34,590 bases of DNA, taken from Bdellovibrionia bacterium. GTDB taxonomy: Bacteria; Bdellovibrionota; Bdellovibrionia; Bdellovibrionales; UBA1609. Shown in pieces: positions 9,525-26,764 of this stretch. Both the position numbers and the translations under genes were made by a program. Location: NCBI GenBank assembly GCA_030432925.1, contig JAUILT010000028.1, positions 1 to 34,590 of the forward strand, written 5' to 3'. Numbering within the stretch: the stretch's first letter is position 1; every line of letters begins with the position of its first letter. The notes under the pieces were generated by a model, which was given only the letters and a program-made list of their open reading frames with translations, ran no database searches and was not told the DNA's origin.

Positions 9525-11295
9525 GGCATCCAAAAACAAAACCACCCGTAATAAAACCACAAGAAAAAAATCCCCAATGAAAACCAGAAAACAGCCTCTG
9601 GTACAAAAATATATTTTTGTCACGGGCGGTGTGGTCTCTTCCATTGGTAAAGGTCTGACGGCAGCCAGTCTTGGAACACTGTTGGAGTCTCGAGGAATTA
9701 AAGTTTCCATTATGAAATCTGACCCCTATATCAATGTGGATCCAGGGACCATGTCACCATTGCAACATGGAGAGGTGTATGTCACTGAAGATGGGGCCGA
9801 GACGGATTTAGATCTGGGTCATTATGAAAGGTTCACCAGTGTGTCTTTGACCCGTTCCAACAGTGTGACAGCCGGTCAGGTTTATGAGTCAGTGATCTCT
9901 AAGGAGCGCCGGGGAGACTACCTTGGAGGAACGGTGCAGGTGATTCCTCACATTACCGATGAAATCAAGTCTCGCATGCATGAGGCGGCTCAAGGGTCCG
10001 AGGTCATTATTGTAGAGATTGGTGGAACTGTGGGAGATATTGAAGGGCTGCCATTTATTGAAGCCATTCGACAGATGCGTGTGGATGTGGGTGTTGAGAA
10101 CACGCTGTTTGTCCATGTGACTTATGTCCCTTATATCAAGGCGGCTGGTGAACTAAAATCTAAACCTACCCAGCATTCGGTAAAGGAACTCAGGGAGGTG
10201 GGAATTCAGCCGGACTTTTTAATCTGTCGAAGTGAGAAAGAGTTGAGTGTTGAGATCAAATCTAAGATTGGATTATTTTGCAGTGTGAATCCGGACAATG
10301 TGATTGCCGCCACGGATTCCAACTCTATTTATGAGGTGCCACTGGTCTTGCACTCTGAAAAGTTTGATGCAAAAGTGGTCAGCGCCTTGGGGCTGGAGGA
10401 AACCGCTCCCAAAATGACCGGATGGAAAAAAATGGTGGACACACTTTTGAACCCTAGATCTGAGGTTTCCATTGGTATTGTGGGTAAATATGTGGATCTG
10501 AAGGAGAGTTATAAATCTCTTCATGAAGCCATTGTTCACGGAGGTATTGCCAACAATTCCAAAGTGAACGTGGTTTATATTGATTCTGAAAAACTGAATT
10601 CCAAGAATGTGAAAAATGCCCTGGCCGATGTGGATGGAGTTTTGGTTCCTGGGGGTTTTGGAGAGCGGGGTGTGGAGGGCAAGATTTCAGCTATTCAGTA
10701 CGCTCGTGAAAATGAGGTTCCTTTTTTTGGGATCTGTTATGGAATGCAGTTGGCAGCCATTGAATTTGCTCGCAATGTCTGTGGCATCAAGGATGCTACC
10801 AGTCGTGAGTTTAGCAAACCTCGCAAAGGTCAGAGAAACTTTGTGATTGATTATATGGAAGAGCAAAAGAGTGTGGCCGACATGGGTGGCACCATGCGCC
10901 TTGGAGCCTACCCTTGTCATTTAGAAAAAGCATCTAAGGCTCTTGAGATTTACAAGTCCAGCCAAATTTCTGAGAGGCATCGTCACCGCTATGAGTTTAA
11001 TAACAAGTTTCGACCAATTTTTGACAAGAACGGAATGACTCTGTCAGGAGTCTGTAGAGACAGGGACCTAGTGGAGATCATTGAAATTAAAGAGCACCCT
11101 TGGTACTTGGCTGTACAATTCCATCCGGAGTTTAAGTCCAAGCCCATGGCACCGCATCCGTTGTTTACAAGTTTTGTTGAGGCCTCCATGAATCATGGGG
11201 TAGACCGTTCCACGGTGCCTGTAAAGGCGGGAAAGGGCAAACACACGGTTCGACGCAGAAGTGTTCGAGACGTCACCAAGTCACTCAATTCATGA
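9514..11295 (+). CDS. pyrG: CTP synthase
   Basis: This glutamine-dependent enzyme makes CTP from UTP. The synthetase half begins at [15 protein letters not shown] with its P-loop, followed by [11 protein letters not shown] and the [15 protein letters not shown] region. The glutaminase half has VPGGFGERG, the nucleophile Cys408 in GICYGMQ, and His537/Glu539 in FHPEF. At 593 residues it is longer than the usual 535-550. There is a basic N-terminal extension of about 28 residues, with [13 protein letters not shown], and a basic C-terminal tail of about 35. Translation might start instead at an in-frame ATG at 9577, but that has no ribosome-binding site, while GGGAAG precedes 9514. It overlaps kdsB by 11 bp. 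Confidence 0.96.
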
Positions 11296-11302
11296 GGTGG
11301 GA

Positions 11303-12286
11303 ATGATCCACGAAGATATCGCAGAAGCTAGAAGAGTTCTTGACCTTGAGGCCCGAGCTATTATGGAGCTCAGGGAGAAATTGGCCGATGATTTTATCAG
11401 GGCTGTCGATCAGCTCACAGCCACCACTGGAAAAGTGATTGTTACTGGTGTTGGCAAGTCTGGGCAAATTGGTCGAAAAATTGCGAGCACCCTCAGTTCT
11501 ACGGGAACACCGGCACTTTATGTTCACCCAACCGAAGGATCTCATGGAGATTTGGGGGTGATTGTTGAAAACGATTGTGTTCTCGCTATTAGCAACAGTG
11601 GTGAGTCTCAAGAGCTGGTAGACCTTTTGGGATATTGCGTTCGAAAAGGGGTTCCTGTTGTGGCTATGACCAGCTCTCGCTCCAGTCATTTGGGGCAGAC
11701 GGCCCACGTATTTTTGGATATTTCTGTTAAAGAGGAGGCTTGTCCGTTGAAGCTGGCTCCTACGTCTTCCTCCACAGTCACCCTAGCCCTTGGAGATGCT
11801 CTGGCTATGGCTACTCTCAAGAGGAAAGGTTTTAACGAGGAGGACTTTGCTGAATTTCATCCCGGAGGTAGCCTGGGGCGAAAAATGCTCACACGGGTAA
11901 AGGATCTGATGCAATCTGGGGGAGATTTACCCATTGTCCGTGAAGACACCCCTATGTCAGAAGTGATTACTCTGATGACCAGTTATGAAGTTCGTGGTGC
12001 TGCAGCCGTTGTGTCGGACTCCGGGGACTTGGTGGGTGTAGTGACTGATGGAGATATTCGGCGCCATTTGGGTCGAAGCAAACCCACTTTGGATTTAAAA
12101 GCAAGAGACTTAATGTCCTTAAGCCCTAAAACTATTGATATGAAAGAATTGGCTCAAAAAGCTTTGTTTCTGATGGAGCAGTTTCGCATCAATCTATTAT
12201 TTGTGGTAGACGCATCTTCAGATAAACCCACTCGTCCAGTGGGCCTGTTGCATATTCAAGATTTGATCAAAGCTCGCTTGAAGTAA
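11303..12286 (+). CDS. kdsD: D-arabinose 5-phosphate isomerase (KdsD/KpsF family)
   Basis: The start at 11303 gives 327 residues, the normal family length; GAGGTGGG lies just upstream, and earlier starts fall inside pyrG. The SIS domain (about 30-170) shows TGVGKSGQIGRK, HPTEGSHGDLG and SNSGES, the sugar-phosphate site. A family linker, FHPGGSLGRK, leads to two CBS domains (about 205-327). The enzyme converts ribulose 5-phosphate to arabinose 5-phosphate, the first committed step to Kdo. It is the last gene of engB-kdsB-pyrG-kdsD; a terminator follows at 12334. Confidence 0.95.
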   Translation: MIHEDIAEARRVLDLEARAIMELREKLADDFIRAVDQLTATTGKVIVTGVGKSGQIGRKIASTLSSTGTPALYVHPTEGSHGDLGVIVENDCVLAISNSGESQELVDLLGYCVRKGVPVVAMTSSRSSHLGQTAHVFLDISVKEEACPLKLAPTSSSTVTLALGDALAMATLKRKGFNEEDFAEFHPGGSLGRKMLTRVKDLMQSGGDLPIVREDTPMSEVITLMTSYEVRGAAAVVSDSGDLVGVVTDGDIRRHLGRSKPTLDLKARDLMSLSPKTIDMKELAQKALFLMEQFRINLLFVVDASSDKPTRPVGLLHIQDLIKARLK

Positions 12287-12443: not shown

Positions 12444-12465
12444 TACATATCCTTTTGAATATGTA
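12444..12465. repeat. Inverted repeat overlapping the start of a beta-barrel gene
   Basis: TACATAT (12444-12450) is the exact reverse complement of ATATGTA (12459-12465), with an 8-bp loop. The right arm contains the ATG at 12461, so a hairpin in the mRNA would bury the start codon. It may be an operator or a translational control element. Confidence 0.5.
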
Positions 12466-13198
12466 CGCAACAAAGATTTGCAACTGGATTTTTTTCCTGT
12501 TGGCAGTGACCACTGTATGGACGTCTCATGCTGAAACCATTGAGCTTCCAGAAGAAGAACTGGCCACGGAGTCTGTGCTTCCTGTTTTTGATAAGCCCAG
12601 AGGTGTTTTAAATCGTGCTGTCATCACAGAGGGGCGATTTGAAGTTGGTGGCGGTGTCGGCCTGGCTTTAAATGAGCCCTTTTACAATCCGATGAATTTT
12701 TACATTGAAGGCAGTTATCATTTTACAGAGTTGCATGGGTTAAATATTAAAGGCCTGTTTCTGATGGATGGGCTTTCAGATTACGGTGAGCAACTGAAGA
12801 CAAATCCCAACTTGAGTCCCAAATTTGATGCCAGCGAAGCTCCTCAGCCTAAAAATATCGTTCTTGCCAGTTATCAATTGACGGCTTTTTACGGAAAAAT
12901 CAGTTTGACTAAAAAATCTGTGATGAACCTATCTTTATTTGGATTGGTGGGTGCGGGCATGGTGGGTTTAAACTCTGGAACGCAACTGCCGGCATTGAAT
13001 GTCGGGTTTGGTCAAAAATTTTATTTTAGTTCTAACTTGGCCTTGCGTCTAGACTTTAGGCTCATTGGCTACTCCGGCCCAGACCCCACGTCTCAAACGT
13101 TGGACCCTTCAGACAATGTGACTCCGGATGAAGGGGTCTTCAAAGATGAGATCTTTTTTAATACTTATATTACGACGGGCGTTGTCTTTTTAATGTAA
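12461..13198 (+). CDS. Outer-membrane beta-barrel protein (first of a tandem pair)
   Basis: From the ATG at 12461 the product has 245 residues. A TTG two codons earlier is the only alternative start nearby, and neither has a ribosome-binding site. The signal peptide ends at SHA before ETIELPEEE. The mature protein has alternating strands rich in Gly and aromatics. The block GRFEVGGGVGLALNEPFYNP is paralleled in the next gene (GRFEFAG and NNPFF), as is the later SYHFTELHG against SYFLNEKHG. This pattern fits the beta-barrel family found in Myxococcus and Bdellovibrio Glt clusters, where GltA and GltB sit in the outer membrane. It lies 172 bp before the second barrel and may be separately expressed. 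Confidence 0.7.
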   Translation: MYATKICNWIFFLLAVTTVWTSHAETIELPEEELATESVLPVFDKPRGVLNRAVITEGRFEVGGGVGLALNEPFYNPMNFYIEGSYHFTELHGLNIKGLFLMDGLSDYGEQLKTNPNLSPKFDASEAPQPKNIVLASYQLTAFYGKISLTKKSVMNLSLFGLVGAGMVGLNSGTQLPALNVGFGQKFYFSSNLALRLDFRLIGYSGPDPTSQTLDPSDNVTPDEGVFKDEIFFNTYITTGVVFLM

Positions 13199-13230
13199 CG
13201 GTGAAAGTGGGTAGGTCGGGCATGTTTTCC

Positions 13231-13254
13231 ACTGAAACATAATTGTTTTTCAGT
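13231..13254. repeat. Inverted repeat between the two beta-barrel genes
   Basis: ACTGAAA (13231-13237) and TTTCAGT (13248-13254) form a perfect 7-bp inverted repeat. No clean T run follows, so a terminator is unlikely. The half-site ACTGAAA also occurs within both copies of the 41-bp repeat at 499 and 24883. Confidence 0.45.
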
Positions 13255-13370
13255 CAAAATTTTGGGATGGGTGGGTTTAAGTCCAGATCAAATTCAGAGA
13301 TGTTTCGTTTTTCCAAATAATTTTGCTACATTAGAATTGAGTGTCAATGCACAAAAAGGATTTCATCAGG

Positions 13371-14189
13371 ATGATCAACATCACTCAGTGTATCAGCAGG
13401 CTGTTTCTATTTACCGCGCTTACCTCGTCCGTGGCTTCTGCACAATTCGACGATGTGCCTCCAGAATCAGGTAACAATGAGACAGAAGTGGAATCTTTAT
13501 ACGATAAATATGATAAAGAAGAGACCAGGAGAGCAGCACCGCAAAAACGCCGCCAATTGAACCCTAATAAACTGGGAACTCTCTCAGAACTGGCTACGCT
13601 GGAGCCATTCAATGATATTGCCGTCATCCAAAGAAAGTTTTTGCCAAAGACAGGTCGGTTTGAGTTTGCCGGTATGGCTATGGGAAGCGTGAACAATCCA
13701 TTTTTTAGTAACTTGGGCCTAGGGTTGAGGGCTTCATATTTTCTCAATGAGAAACATGGTATTGAGCTTCAGTACTACTTTCTATCTAACTCAGAAAGAA
13801 GTGTCACAAAAAGCCTGAGAGACAATCAAAGTGTAGAAACCAAGTCTTTGACAACCCCTAAAAATTACATGGGAGCCGCCTACAAATGGAATCCTATTTA
13901 CGGGAAGATGACTTGGCTCAATAGAACTATTGTTCCTTTTGACTTATTTTTTACTATTGGTGGCGGACTGACAAAGACAGATTTGGGGGAGTCTGAGCCA
14001 ACAATACATATTGGAACAGGGCAGGTTTTTGCCCTGACTAAAGCCATGGCTTTTCGGTGGGATATCTCCTGGAACTTCTATCAAGCTGAAGCTATTGAGA
14101 GCAATGGTGATACGATTACCAATAACCAGGATGACCTGTTTTTGATGCTGGGTATGAGCTTTTATTTTCCGGAGGCAAAATACAGATGA
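13371..14189 (+). CDS. Outer-membrane beta-barrel protein (second of a tandem pair)
   Basis: The start at 13371 was chosen because AAAAAGGA lies ten bases upstream; it yields 272 residues with a clean signal peptide ending SVASA before QFDD. Starts at 13341 or 13347 would add ten or eight charged residues ahead of the signal. A short polar linker with YDKYDKEE follows, and the rest is strand-rich and ends SFYFPEAKYR. It resembles its neighbour at 12461 and heads the nine-gene Glt-like operon; its stop overlaps the next start by four bases. The probable role is an outer-membrane anchor or surface element of the machine. Confidence 0.72.
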   Translation: MINITQCISRLFLFTALTSSVASAQFDDVPPESGNNETEVESLYDKYDKEETRRAAPQKRRQLNPNKLGTLSELATLEPFNDIAVIQRKFLPKTGRFEFAGMAMGSVNNPFFSNLGLGLRASYFLNEKHGIELQYYFLSNSERSVTKSLRDNQSVETKSLTTPKNYMGAAYKWNPIYGKMTWLNRTIVPFDLFFTIGGGLTKTDLGESEPTIHIGTGQVFALTKAMAFRWDISWNFYQAEAIESNGDTITNNQDDLFLMLGMSFYFPEAKYR

Positions 14190-15868
14190 GAAAAATACTT
14201 CTTGGCTTGATGACATTTTCTCTTTTACTCACACCCGAAGTCTCTACGGCCAAAGATTTGTCTTCGACAGTGAGGGGGCCCAGGGCTTCAGATATTCTTG
14301 CTGACCCTGTAGAAGAATTGAATCAGGTTCTTGATAGCTCCTATGAGAGCGAACCTATAGTAGTGGCTCAGCGCTCAAGAAAGAGCAACTCTCGTCGTCG
14401 CTCTCAAGGCTCAGGATCTGATTTGATCAACGCACTTCGTTTGGCTAAACAAAGGCAGTACAAGGATGCATCCATTGCCTTATTTCAATTGAGTCATTCT
14501 CCACGCTATAGAAGTAAGTCCATGCAGATTAAATACATTCTTGGTTTGATGCTCTTTCAAATGAAGATGAATCAAGTGGCAGCTTTTCAATTCATTCGTG
14601 TGGTTAAACAAGGGCGTAATAAGTACTTAAAGCAGGCTATAGAAAAGCTGTCATTGGCGGCAGATTTTTTAGGGGACGATACTTTGTTGAATTATGCTAT
14701 TTCCCGTGTGAAGGTGAGTCAGTTTCCAAGAGTGCATAGAGATATGCTTTACTTTAGAATAGGTGAATATCAGCTAAGGAACAAGGCTTACAGTCAGGCC
14801 GCAAAGAGCTTTTCTAGAGTACAGTCCAACAGTAGTATTTTTCCTACAGCAAAATATCATGAAGGTTTGGCCTTTGCTTCAGCGAATAAAACTAAAAGTG
14901 CCATTCGAGCTTTTGAGGAGTTGATTGAGTCGCGTTCGAATAAGGGGGTTACAGACCCTTCACGTGTAGCAGCTTTGATTGGCCGTGCACGCGCGGCTTA
15001 TCAAGCTAAACTTTGGGATCAGGCCATTACTTTTTATCGGGAAGTTCCCAGAGATACAGAGATGTGGCACGATACTTTGTTTGAATCCAGCTGGGCAATG
15101 GTGAGGTCTGGCCGCTTTCGCTCTGCCCTTAGTAATTTTCACTCTTTGCACTCAGCTTATTACGAAGGCTTTTATTTGCCAGAGTCTTTGTTGCTGCGGT
15201 CGATTGTTTATCTTTACATTTGTAAATATGAAGAGATGGATAAGGTTCTTGGATTATTTAATAAAATCTATAAATCTGTATTCGTAAAAATTGATAAGAT
15301 GCTTGATCAGAGACCAAAACCTGCAGTCTATTTTAATGAGGTTGTTCGAGTTATCAGAGACTACAAGCTCAACGGGGACGATATGGATAAGGGCAAGTAT
15401 CAGATCCCTTTTTTGGTGGTTCGACGTATTCTTCAGGAAGGGGATTTTCAAAACTCTTACAACTATATCAAAAAACTTCTTGATGAAAGAAAGCGGATCC
15501 AGACCATGCCAGCGGATTGGAAGTCTTCGGCCATCGGCAAGTACTCCAATCGAGTTTTGAGAACTCGCCTGGTCAAAGCTCGCGAGAGAGCTGGACGGCA
15601 GATCCGGTCTCATCTGGAAACAATTAAAAATGAGTTATTTGATCTCTTCGAGCAAGAAGGGTTTATTCGTTACGAAATGATCAACGGAAAGAAAGAGTTA
15701 TTAAAAAAGAAAATCTCTGAAAAAGAGCTACCCACGGAGCAGATTGATGAGAAATCAAGCAGAGATTATTATATTCAAAATGGGTTTGAATACTGGCCTT
15801 TCCGTGGGGAGTATTGGCTAGATGAGTTGGGGAACTATCACTATGTTGGCACGCAAGCTTGTAACTGA
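14186..15868 (+). CDS. Secreted TPR protein of the Glt-like cluster, 560 aa
   Basis: The signal peptide is MRKILLGLMTFSLLLTPEVSTA. A basic Ser/Arg stretch (about 63-75, RSRKSNSRRRS) is followed by helical repeats over about 78-330; the clearest TPR-like ones are around YSQAAKSF, KSAIRAFEELI and WDQAITFYREV. A long helical region follows, and the C-terminus carries a distinct aromatic motif, EYWPFRGEYWLDELGNY (about 537-553). As I recall, similar endings occur in TPR proteins of myxobacterial gliding clusters. It is likely a periplasmic scaffold joining the barrels to the inner-membrane motor. The start overlaps the barrel gene by 4 bp, and the end overlaps the next TPR gene by 26 bp. Confidence 0.75.
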   Translation: MRKILLGLMTFSLLLTPEVSTAKDLSSTVRGPRASDILADPVEELNQVLDSSYESEPIVVAQRSRKSNSRRRSQGSGSDLINALRLAKQRQYKDASIALFQLSHSPRYRSKSMQIKYILGLMLFQMKMNQVAAFQFIRVVKQGRNKYLKQAIEKLSLAADFLGDDTLLNYAISRVKVSQFPRVHRDMLYFRIGEYQLRNKAYSQAAKSFSRVQSNSSIFPTAKYHEGLAFASANKTKSAIRAFEELIESRSNKGVTDPSRVAALIGRARAAYQAKLWDQAITFYREVPRDTEMWHDTLFESSWAMVRSGRFRSALSNFHSLHSAYYEGFYLPESLLLRSIVYLYICKYEEMDKVLGLFNKIYKSVFVKIDKMLDQRPKPAVYFNEVVRVIRDYKLNGDDMDKGKYQIPFLVVRRILQEGDFQNSYNYIKKLLDERKRIQTMPADWKSSAIGKYSNRVLRTRLVKARERAGRQIRSHLETIKNELFDLFEQEGFIRYEMINGKKELLKKKISEKELPTEQIDEKSSRDYYIQNGFEYWPFRGEYWLDELGNYHYVGTQACN

Positions 15869-18800
15869 TTTGCAGCCTAGGGTAATCATAAAATCTCTAT
15901 TAGCAGTGGCTTTACTACTGCCATCGGCTGGCTTTGCTCAAAAAGGCAAGACTGTTGGTGATCTTCTCAAAAATATTGAGAAAGATGCAAAGCGGGTAAA
16001 AATTAAAAAAGGGCGCTCGGCTCTTCCAAAATTTGGAAATATTCAACGCAGTTCTTCAGTGAATCTTCAAAGGGTGAAGCCCCCCTCTAGCAATACGCTT
16101 TACTATGAAGAGGGGACTAACGAAGCAGAGCTAGAAAGAGTAACAGATCAAGGGATCGAACAGCTCTACAAGTTAACTCGTCAATTTAAGAGAAGCTCTC
16201 GCAGAGGGGAGCTTTGGTTGAGGCTTGCTGAGCAGTATGTGGAAAAAGCTCGTTTGATTGAGTACCGTATTCAGCAAAAATACGACGAAGAATTGCAGGC
16301 TCACAGGGAAAAGAAAACCAAGCGAAGACCTCGGCTGGATCTGAAGCCAGCTCAAGATTACAATAAAAAAGCCATTGCTCTTTATGAGGCTTTTTTAAAG
16401 GATTTTCCTAAAGATAAAAAAGTACCTCAGGCGTTGTTCTTTTTGGGGTATAACTACTTTGAACTGAATCAGACTACCAAGGGTGAGACTTATTATAAGC
16501 GCTTGACCAAAGATTACCCAAAAAGCCCCTACGTAGACCAATCCAATTTTGCTTTGGGTGAGTACTATTTTGAAAATGAAAAATGGGAGCAAGCTCTTAA
16601 CCATTATATTAAAGTGACAAAGAATAAGCGAGGGCAGTTGTATTCTTTTGCTTGGTATAAGACCGCATGGTGTCAGTATAAGGTTGGCCAAGTGAAGCAG
16701 GCTTTAATCAGTTTGCGTCGAGTGATTTCTGCGGGCCGAGTGGCCAAAGGTAAACAAGATAGCTCTACTGGAGGAGTCAGTCGCATTCGTTTAGCTACGG
16801 AAGCTGTTAAGGATTTGGTGATTTTTTTTGCTGAAGTTAAAAAACCCTCAGAAGCTAAGGGGTATTTTTCTAAAGTGGCTGGGCAGAAAGCTACTTTTGG
16901 CCTTATGGAGAAATTGGCCTATTACTATTCGGATACGGGTTATAAAGATGGGGCCCGGTATGTCTTTAAAGAACTTATTGAGATGCGTCCTGATGCCCCT
17001 AAGGCCTATGATTATCAATATCAGATTGTGACTATGTACGTATCTTCTGGAAAAAATAATGTGTTTCGGCAAGAACTCTATCGTTGGATTGAAGGGTATG
17101 GACCTAACAGTATTTGGGCTCGAGCGAATGCCAATAACAAAGAGTTACTGTCTAAGGCCTATCAGTTGATTGAGACCACTTTGAGAAACTATATTCTCCA
17201 ACAGCATCAAACAGCTCAAAATTCTCGAGCTGCTTATTCTCAGAAAATGGCAAAAAGTGGTTATGAACTTTATTTTCAGACCTTCAAGGAGTCTTCTCGT
17301 CTAGATGAGATGCACTTTTTCTATGCAGAGCTGCTTTTTGATATGCAAGATTGGGAGCGAGCTGCTTATCATTATTTATGGATTAACGAGAATGCAAAGA
17401 AAAGTCAGTACTATGAAAAAGCCACCTTGAATGCAATTCTTGCTTTGGAAAAAAACCTACCTTCACCAGAAGAAATTAAGAATATTGTGGGTAAGTCTAC
17501 AGACCCTGTACCTTTTGATAAAACCATTCGAGTTTTCGAAAAGGTATCTTTAATCTATATCAAGGACTTTCCCAGTGGGGAGTCCAATGTGGCCATCCAG
17601 TATAAAATTGCTTCTCTTTACTACTATTATAATCAGTTTGATAAGGCATTGGTTCTATTTGCAGATATTATTGAGAAACACCCTAAAACAAAATTTGCTG
17701 AATACTCAGCTAACTTAATGTTGGACATTTACAATATTAGGAAAGACTACAAGGGCCTGAAAGTGGCAGGTAGTAAAATACTGGCTATTCCTCAGTTGGC
17801 GCATTCGCCAGTAGGTGCTGAAATCCGGCGCGTGATGGAGCGAGCAGATTTTACCGAAGCTCAACAATTGGAAAAGGGTAAAGATTATATCAAGGCCGCT
17901 GAAGGTTATAGACAGTTTGCCAAGAGTAACCCTGGTTCAGAGTTGGCGGTGGATGCATCGTTCAACGCTGCCGTAAATTTTGAAAGAGGTGGAGATCTTT
18001 TTCAAGCCATTTCTATGTATGCAGTGGTGTCAGAAATGAAAACCCAAAAACATGCAGGCCTGAAGAAGAAATCAGACCGGATTTTGGCAACACTTTACGA
18101 GAAGACAGGTCAATATGCAAAGGCGGCAGATGCTTTTGAGACCTATGCCAATCGCAATCAAAAAGACAAAGAGGCCGTAGATTTTTATTTTAATGCCGGC
18201 CTGATTCGAGATGGAATGACTTTTTATACGGCAGCTATTCGAAACTATGATAAGTATTTTCAGTTGTCCAACAAGCTGGAAAAAAAGGAAGCTCTGTTTC
18301 TTATTGCCAGAATTTGGGAGAAGAGGGGAAGTTATAAATGGGCCTGTATCTATTATGACAAATACATTAATAGCAACCCTGTAAATGCATCTAGTGTGGT
18401 GGAGGCGGCATTCAAGCTAGGGAGTTTGAATGAACTAAGAAAGAGAAGAAAGGCTTCGGAAGACTGGTATAAGAAAACTGTGGCTATTCAGAGGCGGTTG
18501 GCAAAGGGTGGAAAAGTGGTTGGTGTCAGATACGCCGCCGAGGCTAAGTTTATATTGGTAAAAAAGACGTATGATGAGCTCAGAAGAATTAAAATCCCCA
18601 GAAGTCCAGCAGCTCAAAAAAGGGCTGTGGATCAAAAGCTTGGTTTGATTAACAGGTTGAAAGAACAATTAAAAGCAGTCATTAAATACGATGATGGCTT
18701 TCAGGTTGTGGCTTCACTAACATTGATTGGGCAAGCTTACCAACATATGAGTGCCGCTATTTTCAATGCGCCTCTTCCCAAGGGGCTGGATAAGGAGGGA

Positions 18801-19022
18801 GTCAAGCAGTATCGAGCTGGAATTGCACAAGTGGCCTTGCCATTTCAACAACAGGCCATTGATAACTATTTAGCCGCTTTGGAGAAGTCCGAAAAGCTAG
18901 AGGCTTACAACGACTGGGCTAAAATAGCACGTAAGGAGCTTCATAATATTGATTCCGCCAAATACAAAAGCTTTGATGCGGAGGTTTTCCTAACCAAGCT
19001 GCCAGACTGGAAGGGAATTTGA
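15843..19022 (+). CDS. Large secreted TPR protein of the Glt-like cluster
   Basis: The ATG at 15843 was chosen over 15822 because GGGGA lies nine bases before it. The 1059-residue product opens with a signal peptide ending SAGFA before QKGK. It is helical repeats almost throughout. TPR-like units appear around KKVPQALFFLGYNYFEL, SPYVDQSNFALGEYYF, KFAEYSANLMLDI, and AVDASFNAAVNFERGG. There is no enzyme motif. Such solenoids give long protein-binding surfaces; in Myxococcus a comparable TPR-rich periplasmic protein (GltD/AgnA) belongs to the gliding complex. The exact orthologue cannot be fixed by eye. The next gene starts one base after its stop. Confidence 0.78.
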   Translation: MLARKLVTDLQPRVIIKSLLAVALLLPSAGFAQKGKTVGDLLKNIEKDAKRVKIKKGRSALPKFGNIQRSSSVNLQRVKPPSSNTLYYEEGTNEAELERVTDQGIEQLYKLTRQFKRSSRRGELWLRLAEQYVEKARLIEYRIQQKYDEELQAHREKKTKRRPRLDLKPAQDYNKKAIALYEAFLKDFPKDKKVPQALFFLGYNYFELNQTTKGETYYKRLTKDYPKSPYVDQSNFALGEYYFENEKWEQALNHYIKVTKNKRGQLYSFAWYKTAWCQYKVGQVKQALISLRRVISAGRVAKGKQDSSTGGVSRIRLATEAVKDLVIFFAEVKKPSEAKGYFSKVAGQKATFGLMEKLAYYYSDTGYKDGARYVFKELIEMRPDAPKAYDYQYQIVTMYVSSGKNNVFRQELYRWIEGYGPNSIWARANANNKELLSKAYQLIETTLRNYILQQHQTAQNSRAAYSQKMAKSGYELYFQTFKESSRLDEMHFFYAELLFDMQDWERAAYHYLWINENAKKSQYYEKATLNAILALEKNLPSPEEIKNIVGKSTDPVPFDKTIRVFEKVSLIYIKDFPSGESNVAIQYKIASLYYYYNQFDKALVLFADIIEKHPKTKFAEYSANLMLDIYNIRKDYKGLKVAGSKILAIPQLAHSPVGAEIRRVMERADFTEAQQLEKGKDYIKAAEGYRQFAKSNPGSELAVDASFNAAVNFERGGDLFQAISMYAVVSEMKTQKHAGLKKKSDRILATLYEKTGQYAKAADAFETYANRNQKDKEAVDFYFNAGLIRDGMTFYTAAIRNYDKYFQLSNKLEKKEALFLIARIWEKRGSYKWACIYYDKYINSNPVNASSVVEAAFKLGSLNELRKRRKASEDWYKKTVAIQRRLAKGGKVVGVRYAAEAKFILVKKTYDELRRIKIPRSPAAQKRAVDQKLGLINRLKEQLKAVIKYDDGFQVVASLTLIGQAYQHMSAAIFNAPLPKGLDKEGVKQYRAGIAQVALPFQQQAIDNYLAALEKSEKLEAYNDWAKIARKELHNIDSAKYKSFDAEVFLTKLPDWKGI

Positions 19023-19023
19023 T

Positions 19024-19860
19024 ATGAAAGTAACAGCTTTGAAACTACTTTTACTTTTATTGATAATACCTGTTGCAGTTCAGGCTCAATTTGACAATTA
19101 TGATGGGGTTGAAGCAGAGGCTTCAAAATCAGAATCAACAGGTCCATCGACTCCAAAACTAAGGGTTGACAGTAAGGACTTCAAGGCCCTGTCAAGCGCA
19201 CGAGAGGCTCGAGATGAAGAGCTATTCGTCAAGGCTGTCTCCAGAATTTTGGGCCGAGATCAGAGTCATCTCGATGCTTTAAACGCTCTTGCTGTTTTTT
19301 ACATTGAAAAAAAGAAACCTGGATTGGCTAAGATTATTCTTAATAGAGCCATTGAGGCTCATCCTGATGAAAAGGCTCTGCACAACAACTTGGGGATTAT
19401 ATATCTTGAGGAGGGGGAGCTGAGAAGAGCTATTAGTTCTTTTAAGAGGGCTATTGGATTGAACAGAAATTACCGAGTAGGTTTGGCCAACCTTGGCTCT
19501 ATATACCTTGAGTTTGGTGATTATATGAGGGCTATTGAGCCGTTGGAGGCGGGGTATTCATTGATTAAGGGGGATCTTCGAGGAAACAAAGAAGCCGTAG
19601 AGATTGCCAACAATTATGCAGTTGCGCTGGCGGGGGCCGGCGAGGGTAAAAAGGCTAAAAAGATCTATGAGAGAATTTTGGATTCTGACTCACGGAATAT
19701 TGGGGTTCTTCTCAATTATGCAACCCTTTTAACTAAAGGCCTTAAGGATAAGTCAGCAGCTCGCAAGGCGATAAGTAGACTAAAGTTTGTTTCAGACAGT
19801 GTGAAGTATAATAATAAGGCTGAGGAACTTGATAAATTCTTGGAATCCTTGCCGGATTAG
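19024..19860 (+). CDS. Secreted TPR protein, 278 aa (GltE/AglT-like)
   Basis: AAGGGA precedes the ATG. The signal peptide is MKVTALKLLLLLLIIPVAVQA, followed by QFDNYDG, the same QFD opening as the second beta-barrel. After a polar linker come about four TPR units (about 75-265), the clearest being KALHNNLGIIYLEEGELRRA and YRVGLANLGSIYLEFGDYMRA. No lipobox Cys is present. Position and size suggest the counterpart of the AglT/GltE TPR protein of Myxococcus, but that is inference. It lies one base after the large TPR gene and 19 bp before a small secreted protein gene. Confidence 0.75.
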   Translation: MKVTALKLLLLLLIIPVAVQAQFDNYDGVEAEASKSESTGPSTPKLRVDSKDFKALSSAREARDEELFVKAVSRILGRDQSHLDALNALAVFYIEKKKPGLAKIILNRAIEAHPDEKALHNNLGIIYLEEGELRRAISSFKRAIGLNRNYRVGLANLGSIYLEFGDYMRAIEPLEAGYSLIKGDLRGNKEAVEIANNYAVALAGAGEGKKAKKIYERILDSDSRNIGVLLNYATLLTKGLKDKSAARKAISRLKFVSDSVKYNNKAEELDKFLESLPD

Positions 19861-19879
19861 CAAGATGGAGCTTGCCGAT

Positions 19880-20170
19880 ATGAAAATAAGGTATAAAATA
19901 TTTGCTAGATGGGTATTTGCCTTCATTTTGGTTTCGTTCACTTTTGCACCTGTTAAGGGACGTGCGCAGAAAAAAAGTGGTAAGACAAGAACGGCAACAA
20001 TCGACTTTGAAGACGAACTCATTGAAGGAGAAGTTAAAAAGCCAGAACTTTTTTATCTTCTTCAAAAAAAGCAGTTCAACTTTAAAAGGTTAATAAAATT
20101 GAGAAATAATTTTCTCCCTGAAATGAGAAGAACATCTGAGGAACTGAGACATACCGGGAGCAAAGATTGA
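19880..20170 (+). CDS. Small secreted protein of the Glt-like cluster, 96 aa
   Basis: The start at 19880 (MKIRYKIF) was chosen because GGAG lies nine bases upstream; an ATG at 19865 has nothing. The signal peptide runs to about residue 29 (KGRA before QKKS). The short mature chain starts basic, then has the acidic block TIDFEDELIEGEVKKPE, and ends in a basic amphipathic helix rich in Lys, Arg and Phe. There is no known domain. Its four-base overlap with the FHA/TonB-like gene suggests a partner of that protein, for example a periplasmic linker. Confidence 0.65.
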   Translation: MKIRYKIFARWVFAFILVSFTFAPVKGRAQKKSGKTRTATIDFEDELIEGEVKKPELFYLLQKKQFNFKRLIKLRNNFLPEMRRTSEELRHTGSKD

Positions 20171-22212
20171 AACAGCCTATTGTTCTGCGTATTTATTTCA
20201 ATGAAAAGCTGGAGGGTGTCAAGCAATTCACTGAATCCCAGGTTGTTATTGGGCGCAATACAGAAGTTCAGGTAAACCTTGAGGAGGAAGGCGTTTCTCC
20301 ACTTCATGCGGTCATTGAGGAGCGAGAGGGTGGGTATTATATCTCTGACCTGGGCTCTCAGTTGGGGACTCAGCTCAACGGCAATAAGGTTCTAGATGAA
20401 TCTATAGATTCTGGTGATGAAATCGTCATTGGCTCTTATAAACTACAATTTTTCATAGGTATTCCAAAGCCAGTCTCGCCACCACCATCAGTTGTGCAGG
20501 CGGTGCCCGCGGCAGCTTCCAGGCCGACTGTTCCGGAGTCTCCTCCTCCAGTTCCTGAAGAGGCTAAGAGCGGCTTCAATGAAGACACTCAAGAAATCGA
20601 GCTGAGCATTCCTGAGGATACCCTTGTTACAGATATTTCTGAAGTAGATGATGCCACTGGAAAGGTGACGGAGAAGAGGGCTTCCGATAGGCGTGGAGCG
20701 GAGAGAATTCCAAAGCCAGTGAAGCGAAGTAAAAAGACATTTGCTCCGCCCACGGAAAAACCGGCAGATCTATTGATGAAGCCTGGCAAAGGGACTGTCA
20801 TTGAAGTGGTTGTTGCCTGGAAAGAAAGAATCATCCACTCTCAGCATTTTAACGATAAGGGTGTCGTAACCATTGGGTCTTCAGAAAAAGCAGACATCAC
20901 TCTACCGGTGTTATCTGGGGTTAGCTCTTATCCACTTCTTGAAATCGATAGCTTGGTAAAGGTGAATATTGCTCCAAATACTCCTGGCGAGTTAGTTACT
21001 CAGGATAAAAAAACTAGTTTTGCGGACTTAGCTAGGCAAAACCGTTTTCAAGGAACAGAAACCGGTCACCAATTGACTTTAGCTCAAGGGGAAATGGTTC
21101 GAATTGGATACCAGGGAGATTTGGTTAATGTTTATGTGCGCTATGTTGCCGAAACACCAAAACCACTTATGGCACCACTGCTGGACCTCACGACAACAGA
21201 AATTACGGGCCTTGCTTTGGCGGCGTTGGTTTCGGCTATTTTTGGAATTTACATGTTTCTTTATGCACCTTCCAATCTCAATGATGAAAATCGATTGGAG
21301 GAGCCTATTCGTAAAGCAACTGTAACGTTTCGGCCGCCGAGAAAACGTATTGTGAAAATGGAGCAAAAGCCAGAAGAGGTGAAGGAGAAAAAGGTCGTTA
21401 AAGTTGTCGAAAAGAAAAAGCAGACGAAGACACCTTCAACAGATAGGGCTGGAAAACCAGGGAAGGCTGGGGAAGTAGCTCCCAGCAAGAAGCCAGTTCC
21501 AAAGAAGCCTAAGAAAGTAGTTTCTGCTCGACCTGGTGGTTCCATCAAAACGGGAAAGAAAAAGGGCGCCAACATGAAGAGTCGAAAGCCAGACCCCACA
21601 AAGGTAGGGTTATTGAGTGTTTTCGGCTCTAAAGGTGGACAGAAAAAATTGGATAAAGCCTTTTCAGGGGCGGGAGAGCTGCAAGGGATGGCGGATGCTG
21701 CCACCGGATATGCTGGAGACAATGAGGACCGCGAAGGAGACACCCTGGGGTCAAAAATTAAAGATACTGGGGCTGGAGGTCGAGGAGAGCAGACTGTTGG
21801 AATTGCAGGTGTTGGAACCAAGGGCAAAGGAACAGGTGGCTACGGCCTGGGGACTGGTGGTATTGGAAAAAAAGGAAGTGTTGATATTAATGTTGGTGGG
21901 CAGGAGGCAGAATTTGTCGGATCCATGGACCGTGAAGCTATTCGTCGTGTGATATTGAATAATAAGCGAGCTATTAGATCCTGTTATGAAAGAGAGCTGC
22001 AGCGTCGGCCAGATATGTATGGAAAGCTGGTGTTGCAATGGAGGATTGTTGAAAAAGGGCGAGTTTCCCAGGCCAAGGTGAAGAGTAACTCACTGGGGTC
22101 CAGGACAGTCGCCAATTGTATTATAGGAAGATTAAGGACGTGGAGGTTTCCTGAGCCACCCCCCGGTACCATCGGTGAGGTGTCATATCCCTTCGTCTTT
22201 ACATCACAATAA
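20167..22212 (+). CDS. FHA-TM-TonB-like protein with AgmX/PglI-type tail (GltG-like)
   Basis: Translation probably starts at TTG (20167): GGGAG is seven bases upstream, and a later start would cut the FHA domain. Residues 5-98 are FHA (GRN at 29-31, SPLHA at 44-48). Residues about 208-328 look like a second, degenerate FHA (IGSSEKADITLP). A membrane helix lies at 345-366. The outer part has a Lys/Pro-rich spacer (380-480), a Gly-rich linker (about 510-580) and a C-terminal domain (586-681) with Cys606, Cys651 and WRFPEPP near 659-665, typical of the AgmX/PglI tail. In Myxococcus such proteins carry motor force through the periplasm. The order of domains matches GltG/PglI best. Confidence 0.85.
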   Translation: MKQPIVLRIYFNEKLEGVKQFTESQVVIGRNTEVQVNLEEEGVSPLHAVIEEREGGYYISDLGSQLGTQLNGNKVLDESIDSGDEIVIGSYKLQFFIGIPKPVSPPPSVVQAVPAAASRPTVPESPPPVPEEAKSGFNEDTQEIELSIPEDTLVTDISEVDDATGKVTEKRASDRRGAERIPKPVKRSKKTFAPPTEKPADLLMKPGKGTVIEVVVAWKERIIHSQHFNDKGVVTIGSSEKADITLPVLSGVSSYPLLEIDSLVKVNIAPNTPGELVTQDKKTSFADLARQNRFQGTETGHQLTLAQGEMVRIGYQGDLVNVYVRYVAETPKPLMAPLLDLTTTEITGLALAALVSAIFGIYMFLYAPSNLNDENRLEEPIRKATVTFRPPRKRIVKMEQKPEEVKEKKVVKVVEKKKQTKTPSTDRAGKPGKAGEVAPSKKPVPKKPKKVVSARPGGSIKTGKKKGANMKSRKPDPTKVGLLSVFGSKGGQKKLDKAFSGAGELQGMADAATGYAGDNEDREGDTLGSKIKDTGAGGRGEQTVGIAGVGTKGKGTGGYGLGTGGIGKKGSVDINVGGQEAEFVGSMDREAIRRVILNNKRAIRSCYERELQRRPDMYGKLVLQWRIVEKGRVSQAKVKSNSLGSRTVANCIIGRLRTWRFPEPPPGTIGEVSYPFVFTSQ

Positions 22213-22227
22213 CAGGGGGTAAAAGCT

Positions 22228-22911
22228 GTGGAAGAAAATGCAGCAATAGAATTAGCGGAACGCTGTGATTACGGCAATTTTATAATGCAGTCATTCTGTG
22301 AAGGTGGTCCCGTTATGATCATCATTCTTGGAGTGGGTTTGATTGTGGTCTTCTTGATCGTAGAAAGACTGCTCAGCCTGCAAAGGTTGACTGTTGACAA
22401 GACAAGTATCAACGAAAACCTATTCAGCATGTTGCTGAGGGGGGATGTTAAGCAGGCCATTACGTTTTGTGACAGTCGTCCAACACCATTGACCAACACA
22501 TTGAAGGCCGGGCTTGTTCAGGTGATGAATGGACGCCCGGATGAAGAAGTTCAAGTGGCCATGGATGCCTCCGTTCTCAGGGAAACGCCCCGGCTTGAGG
22601 GGTGGACGTCCTTTCTTGCGGTTTTTGGTAACGTGGCAGTTCTTATTGGTCTTTTGGGTACGATTATTGGTTTGATTACATCATTTGGTGGTATTGCGGA
22701 GGCCGATGCTGCAACTAAAGCAGCTGTTCTTTCTCAGGGGATTTCAGAAGCCCTTAACTGTACGGCCTTTGGACTGCTTGTGGCGATTGTTTCCATTGTT
22801 GCTTACGGCTACTTTCAGATCAAAATCAATAAGGCTGTCAATGACATGGAAGAAAGTTCCATGACAATGATGAACTTGGTGGTTTCTAACAGAGACAAGA
22901 TCAAGGATTAG
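22228..22911 (+). CDS. TolQ/ExbB/MotA-like proton channel subunit (AglR-like)
   Basis: The GTG start at 22228 is supported by AGGGGG seven bases upstream. The 227-residue product has three membrane segments: about 30-50, then a paired set (about 130-155 and 170-198) after a cytoplasmic stretch. The core reads FLAVFGNVAVLIGLLGTIIGLI, then GISEALNCTAFGLLVAI, the conserved pore-lining part of the family. With two ExbD-like subunits it should form a proton-driven stator, as AglR with AglQ and AglS in Myxococcus gliding. The preceding gene encodes the likely force-transducing partner. Confidence 0.9.
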   Translation: MEENAAIELAERCDYGNFIMQSFCEGGPVMIIILGVGLIVVFLIVERLLSLQRLTVDKTSINENLFSMLLRGDVKQAITFCDSRPTPLTNTLKAGLVQVMNGRPDEEVQVAMDASVLRETPRLEGWTSFLAVFGNVAVLIGLLGTIIGLITSFGGIAEADAATKAAVLSQGISEALNCTAFGLLVAIVSIVAYGYFQIKINKAVNDMEESSMTMMNLVVSNRDKIKD

Positions 22912-22928
22912 GGAAGTAGAGGTCGCTT

Positions 22929-23405
22929 ATGGCACATGTTGATGATTCCGGTGGAAGTAAAAGGCGAAGTTCTATTGTCGATTTGAACATCGTTCCGTTT
23001 ATTGACCTGATGAGTGTGCTGATTATCTTTCTTTTGATCACAGCAGTGTGGACCCAGGTCTCCATGATTCAGATTGGGAGTTCCATTTATGGTAAGAAGA
23101 CCGCTCAGGAACGGTCAGAACCCCCACCAAAGGCGGAAATCCCCTTTCGCTTGGACGTGCGTGAAAATGGTTATCGGATTATACTTGGTCGGCAGTCGAC
23201 AGATGTGCCAAAAGCCGACGGAAAATATGACGATGAGACGTTGGTGGAAAAATTAAAAGAGGTCAAAGAGCTTTACCCAGAAAAGGTAGATGCTGTAGTG
23301 ACTGTACTGGATGAACTGCCTTATGAAACTTTGATTAAGGGAATGGATGCACTGCTGACCGCTGGATTTCCTCAAATATCTGTTTCAACAGCGGGAGCGA
23401 ACTGA
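22929..23405 (+). CDS. TolR/ExbD-like stator subunit 1
   Basis: The 158-residue product has a basic N-terminus (SKRRSS), one membrane helix (about 22-42) and a periplasmic domain. The helix contains VPFIDLMSVLIIFLL with Asp26 at the proton-carrying position. The periplasmic part has the ExbD pattern around VDAVVTVLDELPYETLIKGMD. It starts 17 bp after the TolQ-like gene, and its TGA stop overlaps the next ATG by one base. It probably pairs with the second subunit in an AglQ/AglS-like arrangement. Confidence 0.9.
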   Translation: MAHVDDSGGSKRRSSIVDLNIVPFIDLMSVLIIFLLITAVWTQVSMIQIGSSIYGKKTAQERSEPPPKAEIPFRLDVRENGYRIILGRQSTDVPKADGKYDDETLVEKLKEVKELYPEKVDAVVTVLDELPYETLIKGMDALLTAGFPQISVSTAGAN

Positions 23406-23992
23406 TGGCCATTTATGTACCTGGAAAAAGATCCAGAAAAGGCAAGGCGAAAGGGCAAAAACGAAGCGCTGTGGCAGTTTTGCAATTAACTGCCATGGTG
23501 GACATGTTTACGGTACTGGTCGTGTTTCTTCTTCAAAACTACGCAACCACTAATCAAATCCTTCCTCTTCCTGAGGCCGTAGAGCTGCCACAGGCAAAGA
23601 CTGTTAAAGAATTGAAGCCATCAAATGTTGTTGTACTGACAGATCAAGACGTGCAGTTGAACTCCACAAAAGTAGCGACATTCACGGATGTCAAAGAGGC
23701 TGAGGACTGGCTGATTGTCAATCTTGAAAAAGAGTTGAAAAAGTTGATTGAAGAAGGTGAAAAGAATAAGCAAGAATTACGCAATCAGATACAGAACGCT
23801 GTCACCGAAGCTCGAGAGGGGGAGAGAGCAGAAGATGAAATTGATGAATTCAGAAAAATTACAATTCAGGCGGATAGTAAGGTGGATTTTCTTACTGTAA
23901 AGAAAATTATGTACACAGTTACTGAGGCCGGGGTCTATGAAATCAATTTTGCTGTGATGAAAAAGCCTGAAGAGGCAAGTGAACCCCTTTAA
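23405..23992 (+). CDS. TolR/ExbD-like stator subunit 2 with coiled-coil insert
   Basis: The 195-residue product has a very basic N-terminus (GKRSRKGKAKGQKR), one membrane helix (about 26-46) with Asp33 in LTAMVDMFTVLVVFLL, and a periplasmic domain. Compared with its neighbour it carries an extra charged helical stretch (about 100-140, rich in Glu, Lys and Arg) before the final ExbD-like strand-helix unit. Two unequal ExbD partners beside one TolQ-like subunit is the Agl arrangement. This is the last gene of the operon. No clear terminator was found in the 31 bp before the convergent gene. Confidence 0.87.
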   Translation: MAIYVPGKRSRKGKAKGQKRSAVAVLQLTAMVDMFTVLVVFLLQNYATTNQILPLPEAVELPQAKTVKELKPSNVVVLTDQDVQLNSTKVATFTDVKEAEDWLIVNLEKELKKLIEEGEKNKQELRNQIQNAVTEAREGERAEDEIDEFRKITIQADSKVDFLTVKKIMYTVTEAGVYEINFAVMKKPEEASEPL

Positions 23993-24023: not shown

Positions 24024-24737
24024 TCAGGCGGCCACCTTCAACTTCGAAAGCATTTCAAAACTTTTTTCTTTTACGTAGGAGATAATCTGCGACTGGGCCT
24101 CGCGATTGATTTGAGTGAACTTAAATCCAACAGTTTCAGAGTCCAGGTATCTTACCTGTGCGGAAGTGTGGATAGTGCCCCCAATTTCATCTGAGATAAT
24201 TTCTAATTTTAGGTTTAGTCCAGGAGCAAGGTCGTAGGCAAAGTTTCGTGCTCCAAAGCCACCCTCTGAAATTGAAGAGAGTTCGCCAACAATATATTGA
24301 TCTCCATGGTGAAGAACTATCTTTCCTGAAACTGGTGCTCTAGGAAAGTTTCTACGATTCACTCCAACGTTATCCATTATGTCATGAAATTCAAAAATTG
24401 GAGCCCAATTAGTCATTCCTTTGGTCCAGATCAGGGCATCGTTCGCATCTCCTTTAAGTTTCTTTAACTCCTCAACGAGATCTTTTTTGTTTAAAGGGCC
24501 TTGAGATTCACCCCTGAAAGCAAAATGCCATTTACGAGGATCTGTGGCCTTTGCAGCCTCTGCGAGGATAGAGTCATAATGATCGAGCCACCATGAATAG
24601 GGTTTCCAAACATTGAGAGCCTTTCCCCAAACCAGAACGTCAGTTGGGTACCTGTTGTCTTTGACAAGCTTTTCCACTTGCTCTCTTGTGAAGGGCCCAT
24701 CGACAATATCGTTGTTACAAATAAACCACTTTTCCAT
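24024..24737 (-). CDS. GYF-GYF-PilZ adaptor protein
   Basis: The 237-residue soluble product has two GYF_2-type domains in tandem (about 2-50: WFICNNDIVDGPFTREQ and VWGKALNVW; about 70-118: WHFAFRGESQGPL and IWTKGMTNW). A PilZ domain follows (about 127-225). The PilZ RxxxR motif is present (Arg129, Arg133), but the second motif reads SISEGG (155-160), with Ser where Asp or Asn is usual, so c-di-GMP affinity is uncertain. GYF domains bind proline-rich partners; in Myxococcus the gliding protein GltJ carries one. The gene is convergent with the Glt-like operon and divergent from lptC. No ribosome-binding site is evident. Confidence 0.85.
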   Translation of the reverse strand: MEKWFICNNDIVDGPFTREQVEKLVKDNRYPTDVLVWGKALNVWKPYSWWLDHYDSILAEAAKATDPRKWHFAFRGESQGPLNKKDLVEELKKLKGDANDALIWTKGMTNWAPIFEFHDIMDNVGVNRRNFPRAPVSGKIVLHHGDQYIVGELSSISEGGFGARNFAYDLAPGLNLKLEIISDEIGGTIHTSAQVRYLDSETVGFKFTQINREAQSQIISYVKEKSFEMLSKLKVAA

Positions 24738-25005: not shown

Positions 25006-26025
25006 ATGTTAATATTAAAGAAAGGAATGGCATTGTTTTTGACCAGAGTTCTGAGGCGCTACAGTCAATGGTTTTTGCTTGTTGTGCTGATTGTTCTTAT
25101 TGTTGAAGTGGTGATTTTAGCACCAGGGACTATCAATCAGAACAGAGAAGATATGAGCGAACAACTTCAGGATCAGACAATCTCTTCTCAAGTAGAACAA
25201 TCCATGGAGGGGGTTCACCTTGTCGAAACCAGTGAAGGTGAAAAAGAGTGGGAGCTATGGGCTGATGAAGCTCTAGCCTTTAAGGCCGAGCAGCAGTGGA
25301 TGTTAGAGAACGTAAGAGCTGTTTTTTTTGGAAAAGATGGAGTGAGGTTTACAGTGACCGGAAATGAGGGGTATGTGGAACCAAAGACTAAAAACATGCA
25401 AGTGAAAGGAGATGTTGTGACCCGCTCTTCTAATGGCTATGTTTTTAAGACTGAAAAAGTCACCTATACTTCTCAGGGTAGAGCTTTATATGGTCCAGAT
25501 AAAATAGATATGGTTGGACCTAAAGACAAAAGTGGAAAGTATATGAGTCTGACTGGGGTGGGCATGAAGGCTGACCTTCAGGAGTCCACTATCGATATAT
25601 TGTCTAACGTTGTTGCAACTAAGGACTTTCAAAAAGGTCAGTTAGCCAGAATTCGCTCTCGAACAGCAACGTTCAGCGGTCGAGACAGTCGGGCTCAGTT
25701 TCATGGCAATGTTATTATTGATTATGATACCATGAGGCTGACAGGACCTGATGCGGAGTTTGATTATGACAATGAAAAAGGCATTGTCAAAAGTATGTAT
25801 GTTAAGAATGGGGTTCGTGTTAGTGATGCCGTGAAGTTTGCAACTTCTGATAACGTTCGTGTGCTTTTTGAAGAGGAAAAATTTGTTTTCAGAGGAGCCC
25901 CCAGAGTAGTTCAGAATAATGATGAGATTCGTGGTGAGGAGATTGTATTTTTGAACCGCGGGGAAACTGTGAAAGTCATAAAGGCTCGAGCCCGTGTGGA
26001 AGAGTTGAAAGAAAAAGGAAAATAG
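25006..26025 (+). CDS. lptC: LptC with LptA-like C-terminal half
   Basis: The product (up to 339 residues) starts with a short cytoplasmic tail and one membrane helix (about 21-40). The LptC-like beta-jellyroll follows (about 65-200), including [10 protein letters not shown] and [13 protein letters not shown]. The rest (about 205-335) repeats the OstA/LptA strand pattern, as in [16 protein letters not shown] and [11 protein letters not shown]. LptC links the inner-membrane LPS extractor to the LptA bridge; usual LptC is about 190 residues, so this one may supply part of the bridge itself. The true start may be the ATG at 25027, directly after AAAGAAAGGA; neither start has a well-spaced ribosome-binding site. 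It is followed by lptB. Confidence 0.82.
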
Positions 26026-26027
26026 TG

Positions 26028-26750
26028 ATGAAAAAATTGAGCATCAAAGGTATTTCCAAACGGTTCAAGCAGCGCCAGGTTGTGAAATCTGTATCCTTTG
26101 ATGTGAATTCTGGTCAGGTGGTTGGGCTTTTGGGGCCCAATGGTGCTGGTAAAACAACATCTTTTTATATGGTGGTGGGATTGGTGCAGCCGGACTCTGG
26201 TTATGTCACTATCGATGAGAAAGACATTGGCCAGTTGCCCATGTTTCAGAGAGCCCGTCATGGTTTGAGTTATTTGCCTCAAGAGCCCAGTATTTTTCGC
26301 CGTCTTACAGTTAAGGAGAACCTCATTGTGGCTCTGGAAGCTCAAGGTTACTCCTCTTCTGAACGTGCAGAAAAGTTAGAGCAGTTATTGGATGATTTCA
26401 AAATTCAACATATCAGAGAGAGTTATGGATACTCTCTATCAGGTGGTGAAAGGCGACGTGTAGAGATTGCTCGAGCACTTGCTGGGTCACCCAGCTTCTT
26501 ACTTTTAGATGAACCCTTTGCAGGAATTGACCCCATTGCTGTAGGTGATATCCAAGAGATTATTCGTGAACTCAAGGGGCGGGGGATCGGAATATTGATT
26601 ACAGATCATAATGTCAGAGAGACTTTGGGTATTTGTGATAAGGCATACATTCTGAAAGAGGGAAAAATCGAAGTTGAAGGAACAGCTCATGAGATTGCCA
26701 CCTCAGATGTTGCTAGAAAATTTTATCTCGGTGAGAACTTCAAGCTTTAA
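26028..26750 (+). CDS. lptB: LPS export ABC transporter ATP-binding protein
   Basis: The ATG at 26028 was preferred to the GTG at 26025 because AAGGA is eight to nine bases upstream. The 240-residue product has Walker A GPNGAGKT (about 37-44), the Q-loop region LPQEPSIFR, signature LSGGERRR (about 138-145), Walker [13 protein letters not shown] and the switch His in ITDHNVRE. The wording of these motifs is characteristic of LptB, which drives LPS extraction from the inner membrane with LptF and LptG, not present here. lptC precedes it and rpoN follows after 14 bp, an order widespread in proteobacteria. Confidence 0.96.
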
Positions 26751-26764
26751 AGGGAGTCAGTGGA

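Follow-up and report, generated by a model that had tools for sequence, protein, structure and literature searches.

We analysed a window of 34,590 nucleotides (contig JAUILT010000028.1 of assembly GCA_030432925.1, from a Bdellovibrionia bacterium of the order Bdellovibrionales with a 3.04-Mb, 96% complete genome), in which ten open reading frames on the plus strand (12455–23992) form an operon. This operon, designated set 1, was best explained as a complete Glt/Agl trans-envelope machine whose input would be gated by PilZ-GYF, a protein with two GYF_2 domains and a C-terminal PilZ domain that is encoded beside it (24024–24737, minus strand). We put the probability of this explanation as a whole at about 0.72. 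On the evidence of protein families, the operon was securely identified as a new member of an already-known kind of machine, and its predicted proton-driven, envelope-spanning working is well supported by homology. Among the Glt/Agl sets of the order, this is the near-universal one, and it corresponds to a Bdellovibrio operon whose last gene is required for prey attachment. The machine itself being known, the less expected part is the conserved PilZ-GYF gene with its GltJ-like adaptor domain, which provides a concrete candidate link between a second messenger and the motor.

Components and conservation of the operon

All ten open reading frames were confirmed at their places. NCBIfam models named six of the genes, and Pfam TolQ/ExbD models named three. 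The first two genes (12455–13198 and 13341–14189) encode outer-membrane beta-barrels of GltA/GltB type, which matched OMP_myx_plus (TIGR04565) with 87.1 and 111.7 bits, respectively, against a cut-off of 60. The second barrel carries an N-terminal signal and a linker; its AlphaFold model contains eight long strands (mean predicted local distance difference test score, pLDDT, of 74.5, mostly above 85 in the barrel part), and Foldseek related it to OmpW/OmpA. The third gene (14186–15868) encodes GltC, a secreted tetratricopeptide repeat (TPR) protein that matched NF033756 gliding_GltC over 480 residues (205.7 bits, 1.5e-60; equivalog cut-off of 450). It is followed by a GltD-type large secreted TPR protein of 1066 amino acid residues (15822–19022; the start may be 15846), which matched TPR models and no GltD model in NCBIfam, so that its name rests on position and size. 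The GltE-like secreted TPR protein (19024–19860) was best matched, by a small margin among several TPR models, by NF033758 (51.1 bits, 1e-13) and has no lipobox cysteine by reading. The small secreted protein GltF/CglF (19829–20170; the start is probably 19865 or 19880) matched NF033764 gliding_CglF with 44.2 bits (1.4e-11). GltG (20167–22212), the putative energy transducer, matched NF033760 from end to end (275.8 bits, 7.7e-82) and consists of an FHA domain (2e-14), a proline-rich linker, a transmembrane helix near residue 349, and a periplasmic TonB-like C-terminal domain that scored over the cut-off of NF033768 (AgmX/PglI; 109 bits, 7e-32). The last three genes encode AglR, a TolQ/ExbB-like stator subunit (22228–22911; PF01618, 1.9e-30), and two TolR/ExbD-like subunits in the positions of AglQ (22929–23405; PF02472, 1e-15) and AglS (23405–23992; PF02472, 1.2e-12). 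Several start codons in the list of open reading frames lie upstream of the likely true starts.

The initial annotation, made from the sequence alone, had listed two barrels, three secreted TPR proteins, a small secreted protein, an FHA-transmembrane-TonB-like protein, one TolQ-like subunit, and two TolR-like subunits, and had likened the set to the core of the Myxococcus gliding machine; the family models recovered every one of these components, and searches with hidden Markov models (HMMs) of the Glt/Agl families agreed with the likeness. It had also described nine of the genes as overlapping or nearly touching. From 13341 to 23992, neighbouring genes do overlap or lie no more than 17 bases apart, and the first gene alone is set off, by about 140 bases. 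The ten genes end at 23992 as annotated, whereas the functional neighbourhood reaches 24737 and takes in the PilZ-GYF gene, which had been left out.

Myxococcus xanthus has the corresponding genes spread over three clusters, namely G2 (gltC, A, B, and K), G1 (gltD–J), and M1 (aglRQS) (PMC3169522). The gene order in the window is that of G2, G1, and M1 fused into one operon. Wherever the region fetched from a relative was complete enough (35 genomes from ten families), this order was conserved, and it was intact in 39 of the 52 named loci, with nearly all exceptions lacking GltE only. Because the genes are collinear in dozens of genomes, a chance grouping can be excluded. Roughly a third of the order lacks GltE while keeping the other nine genes, and those for GltD and GltF then abut. 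Set-1 orthologues were present in 39 of 40 relatives and were retained even in genomes of 1.2–1.6 Mb. Each of the 27 order members listed has GltC of ortholog level (523–849 bits), and other classes in the phylum sample yielded weaker homologues only (113–194 bits).

The same genome encodes two further paralogous sets. Set 2 on contig C96 consists of PilZ-GYF, AglR, two TolR-like subunits, GltD, GltE, GltF, GltG, an outer-membrane protein (OMP), and GltC, and set 3 on contig C72 consists of AglR, two TolR-like subunits, GltD, GltG, a lipoprotein, an OMP, GltC, and a second lipoprotein. Judged by HMM scores, set 1 comes nearer to the Myxococcus models than sets 2 and 3 do, with GltC scoring 206 bits versus 109 and 49 and GltG scoring 276 bits versus 168 and 130. 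In another relative (G031), set 1 was the sole set kept at the GltC level. The complete, B. bacteriovorus-like genome G037 has four sets at 0.41, 0.80, 1.55, and 2.43 Mb, and their gene orders fit Bd0412–0420, Bd0828–0838, Bd1473–1483, and Bd2368–2377 of strain HD100. Gene order and position thus suggest that set 1 is the orthologue of B. bacteriovorus Bd0828–Bd0838. The initial annotation had noted that Glt homologues are described in Bdellovibrio and had missed both this orthology and the two paralogous sets. In three other genomes of the order (G106, G140, and G136), a second set-1-like GltC was observed (384–423 bits), possibly from a further duplicated set. The lipoprotein beside GltC in set 3 (L016, 1264–2616, minus strand) weakly matched a Bdellovibrio MIDAS-family adhesin model (6.7e-7 over 48 residues); an adhesin of its own may thus be encoded in set 3.

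Stator residues and the Tol-Pal system

The residues expected of a proton channel were retained in the stator subunits. T145 and T179 of AglR, which correspond to the channel threonines of TolQ, and the transmembrane aspartates of the first (D26) and second (D33) TolR-like subunits were invariant across 33 orthologues. D26 aligns with the ExbD aspartate, and in Myxococcus the D28N substitution in AglQ abolished proton conductance (PMC3858216). The first TolR-like subunit was assigned to AglQ and the second to AglS because the Myxococcus order is aglR-aglQ-aglS and Bd0838, the counterpart of the second subunit by gene order, closes its operon and is annotated as AglS.

Since the stator subunits match the TolQ/TolR models, albeit weakly, they could instead serve a Tol-Pal or TonB system. 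Their scores were far under the curated cut-offs, they were consistently linked to GltG among relatives, and no TolA, TolB, or Pal gene lies within the operon. A separate tolQ-tolR-tolA-tolB cluster, of which TolQ, TolA, and TolB scored over their curated cut-offs, was found on contig C123, which argues that the stator in the window is not the Tol-Pal motor. The assignment to Tol-Pal or TonB was thus ruled out by sequence and synteny and is highly improbable. Neither of the outcomes that the initial annotation had named as contrary to its view was encountered: the TPR and barrel proteins belong with Glt/Agl rather than unrelated families, and the stator is not paired with a TolA/TonB system.

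These features are consistent with a machine in which AglR and the two TolR-like subunits would form a proton-driven stator in the inner membrane. The stator would drive GltG, whose single transmembrane helix and TonB-like periplasmic domain could carry force across the periplasm; the corresponding AglR-GltG contact has been shown in Myxococcus (PMC3169522). GltC, GltD, GltE, and GltF would provide the link to the two OmpA/OmpW-like barrels in the outer membrane. As its output, the machine would move surface components or exert force on them, for contact with prey or substrate; attachment is indicated by the Bd0838 orthologue, and gliding would be a further use.

The PilZ-GYF gene and proposed control of the machine

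Three proteins of the Myxococcus gliding system were looked for throughout the genome. MglA was found on contig C113, 61% identical to the query sequence. MglB-type Roadblock proteins (PF03259) were not found in the genome, and a model search of the genome for GltJ recovered only shared domains at the C terminus and, weakly, a GYF domain. These results bear out the earlier statement that MglA, MglB, and GltJ are missing from this locus, which must therefore be controlled differently or from another place. In Bdellovibrio, prey invasion depends on MglA, whereas gliding itself does not (PMC3983030).

The PilZ-GYF gene lies directly downstream of the operon in convergent orientation, and its product matched GYF_2 (9.6e-16) and PilZ (7.8e-13). 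R129 and R133 of the RxxxR motif and S157 and G160 of the second motif were invariant across 15 orthologues. The AlphaFold model had a pLDDT of 90, and the best Foldseek matches were c-di-GMP-bound PilZ domains, YcgR, and MotI, with a weaker match to the GYF domain of GltJ (7z3c). With the PilZ-GYF alignment as the query, this GYF domain of Myxococcus GltJ was the closest PDB sequence (1.3e-5). The retained motif residues and the modelled fold suggest a protein resembling cyclic-dinucleotide sensors.

The distribution of the gene follows the order. Set-1-type PilZ-GYF was present in nearly all of the 27 listed members (25 at 113 bits or more) and scored at most 71 bits outside the order; it is a neighbour of set 1 in 15 of the loci fetched and in 21 of the 51 named ones. 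A second, diverged group belongs to set 2: in 24 of 29 loci (about 0.2 expected), the gene immediately preceded aglR. PilZ-GYF genes adjoin set 1 or set 2 much more frequently than chance would give. GYF_2 was detected in three proteins of the genome only, namely the set-1 PilZ-GYF, the set-2 PilZ-GYF, and a GYF-GYF-transmembrane protein.

Because MglB and GltJ are absent, we propose PilZ-GYF as the cytoplasmic on/off input of the machine. The GYF modules would bind a cytoplasmic stretch of the machine that is rich in proline, probably the linker of GltG. The PilZ domain would render this docking dependent on c-di-GMP or cGAMP, by analogy with YcgR and MotI on flagellar motors. The general form of this proposal, in which dedicated PilZ-GYF adaptors control the Glt/Agl machines of Bdellovibrionales, with one diverged group each for sets 1 and 2 and a soluble GYF module gated by c-di-GMP or cGAMP, is tentative and falls somewhat short of even odds. 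If it is true, each paralogous machine would have its own second-messenger clutch, replacing MglB and GltJ; in Myxococcus, the GYF domain is built into GltJ. In the literature searched, no paper joining PilZ, GYF, and Bdellovibrio was found; as far as could be checked, neither the kinship of the GYF domains with GltJ nor the set-1 counterpart found across the order has been described before. A 2026 review still lists the gliding machinery of Bdellovibrio as unidentified and notes only the regulation of gliding by cGAMP (PMC13104615).

Several observations weigh against the proposed PilZ-GYF-gated machine. Every Glt equivalog match in the operon scored below its NCBIfam cut-off, which may be expectable of gliding models outside Myxococcota. 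The first residue of the second PilZ motif (D/NxSxxG) is neither Asp nor Asn. Members of the genus Bdellovibrio have their set-1 PilZ-GYF gene away from set 1, and the GltG linker is proline-rich with or without an adjacent PilZ-GYF gene; docking on GltG is a proposal for which the evidence is suggestive. In addition, bd1480, a gene of set 2, has been reported to be induced on surfaces and to depend on the cGAMP synthase Bd0367 (PMC9140294), so the gliding motor may be set 2.

The opposite strand of the gene and its displacement in the genus Bdellovibrio would also fit a gene that takes no part in the machine and adjoins it by conserved gene order only. We consider this rather unlikely, as the diverged group is tied independently to set 2, the GYF domain of the set-2 protein matches the GltJ model, albeit weakly, and the set-2 gene Bd1482 had been proposed independently as a receiver for gliding control (Hobley 2012).

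Three further observations concern GYF proteins. The PilZ-GYF proteins of both groups (24024–24737; L049–L077, L216–L230) mostly end in Ala-Ala, as do 12 of the 15 set-1-type proteins; such an end resembles ClpXP degrons of the SsrA/CtrA type and is possibly a signal for regulated proteolysis. A third class of GYF proteins, usually one per genome, has by reading two GYF domains, an acidic linker, one transmembrane helix, and a periplasmic part without a TonB-like tail (L200–L202, L204, L207–L209, L212–L215). Its member in the present genome (G000, contig C5, 1–930; L191) is cut by the contig end and was rejected as GltJ, given that the complete relatives lack the TonB-like tail; the class has a GltJ-like topology and is a possible membrane partner. 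In the relatives L205 and L206, GYF domains were seen by reading at the C terminus of HAMP-adenylate-cyclase-like proteins.

Surface role and comparison with known systems

Bdellovibrio has four expanded core sets without GltH, I, J, and K, of which Bd0828–0838 was named the best gliding candidate (Luciano 2011, PMC3169522). A transposon mutant of Bd0838 (AglS) showed no prey attachment, killing, or rounding (PMC6561027). According to a citation in the same paper, Bd0836, which should be AglR by position, is among six c-di-GMP-captured proteins that are also required for predation. Considering the defect of the Bd0838 mutant against the surface induction of bd1480 in set 2, prey attachment is the supported role for set 1, and gliding is plausible. 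The initial annotation had envisaged a proton-driven complex reaching the cell surface for gliding, prey contact, or surface transport; the retained channel residues and the Glt/Agl families agree with the complex, and gliding by this particular set stays conjectural.

Set 1 could nevertheless be the gliding motor proper, with the attachment defect of the Bd0838 mutant following from the loss of gliding or focal-adhesion contact. The closeness of its GltC and GltG to the Myxococcus models and the agl tree, from which Luciano 2011 (PMC3169522) reached the same conclusion, argue for this view, whereas GltJ, which Myxococcus requires for gliding, is absent, and the surface induction in Bdellovibrio was reported for a gene of another set. 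We regard it as a serious possibility, though one with less than an even chance.

The surroundings of the operon bring in another function. The operon is enclosed by a lipopolysaccharide (LPS) block, with kdsB, pyrG, and kdsD upstream (8173–12286) and lptC, lptB, and rpoN downstream (25006–28204), and this arrangement is conserved across families. Together with the retention of set 1 in small genomes, it would suit an envelope-housekeeping or surface-polymer transport machine that distributes or anchors LPS or another polymer, with the attachment phenotype as an indirect effect. The Myxococcus paralogue Nfs also uses the AglRQS motor, to move polymer of the spore coat (PMC3858216), and Bd0828–0838, Bd1473–1483, and Bd2368–2377 of HD100 were upregulated in host-independent growth and not at 30 min of predation (PMC2797640). 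The block, however, also contains unrelated housekeeping genes (pyrG and rpoN), the operon has no fused polymer-export gene, and the reported Bd0838 defect starts at attachment, so that we judge such a function unlikely. The gene at 26765–28204 was recognized as rpoN by reading, and near the operon (6639–7979, minus strand) lies a gene for a sigma-54 activator whose N terminus carries an FHA domain.

The conserved core of Glt/Agl machines consists of AglR, AglQ, AglS, GltC, GltD, GltE, and GltG, to which the GltA/GltB barrels and GltF are deltaproteobacterial additions. Compared with Agl-Glt of Myxococcus, set 1 has in common GltC, GltE, GltF/CglF, GltG, two barrels of GltA/GltB type, AglR with two TolR-like subunits, and the proton-channel residues. 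It differs in forming one operon instead of three clusters, in that no GltJ or MglB was found, and in the PilZ-GYF gene alongside. Myxococcus Nfs likewise has a Glt-type core driven by AglRQS, whereas it serves polymer transport during sporulation. With Bd0828–Bd0838, set 1 shares the gene order ending in AglS and the position with respect to the three remaining sets in G037, and the orthologous genes are present in strain kdesi (L132); the difference lies in the set-1 PilZ-GYF gene, which is elsewhere in the genus Bdellovibrio. Bd1473–Bd1483 (set 2) has the same component families and a PilZ gene (Bd1482) at its 5′ end, as in set 2 on C96. It differs from set 1 in its order (AglR, two TolR, GltD, GltE, GltF, GltG, OMP, and GltC), in a GltC of about 850 amino acid residues, and in its diverged PilZ-GYF group.

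PilZ-GYF has the GYF domain in common with Myxococcus GltJ, which sits in the membrane, has a TonB-like tail, and lacks PilZ. With YcgR and MotI, PilZ proteins that brake or declutch flagellar motors, PilZ-GYF shares an N-terminal docking part followed by PilZ, a matching fold, and a gene beside a proton-driven stator; in contrast to them, its N-terminal part consists of two GYF domains, and its partner would be a Glt/Agl protein.

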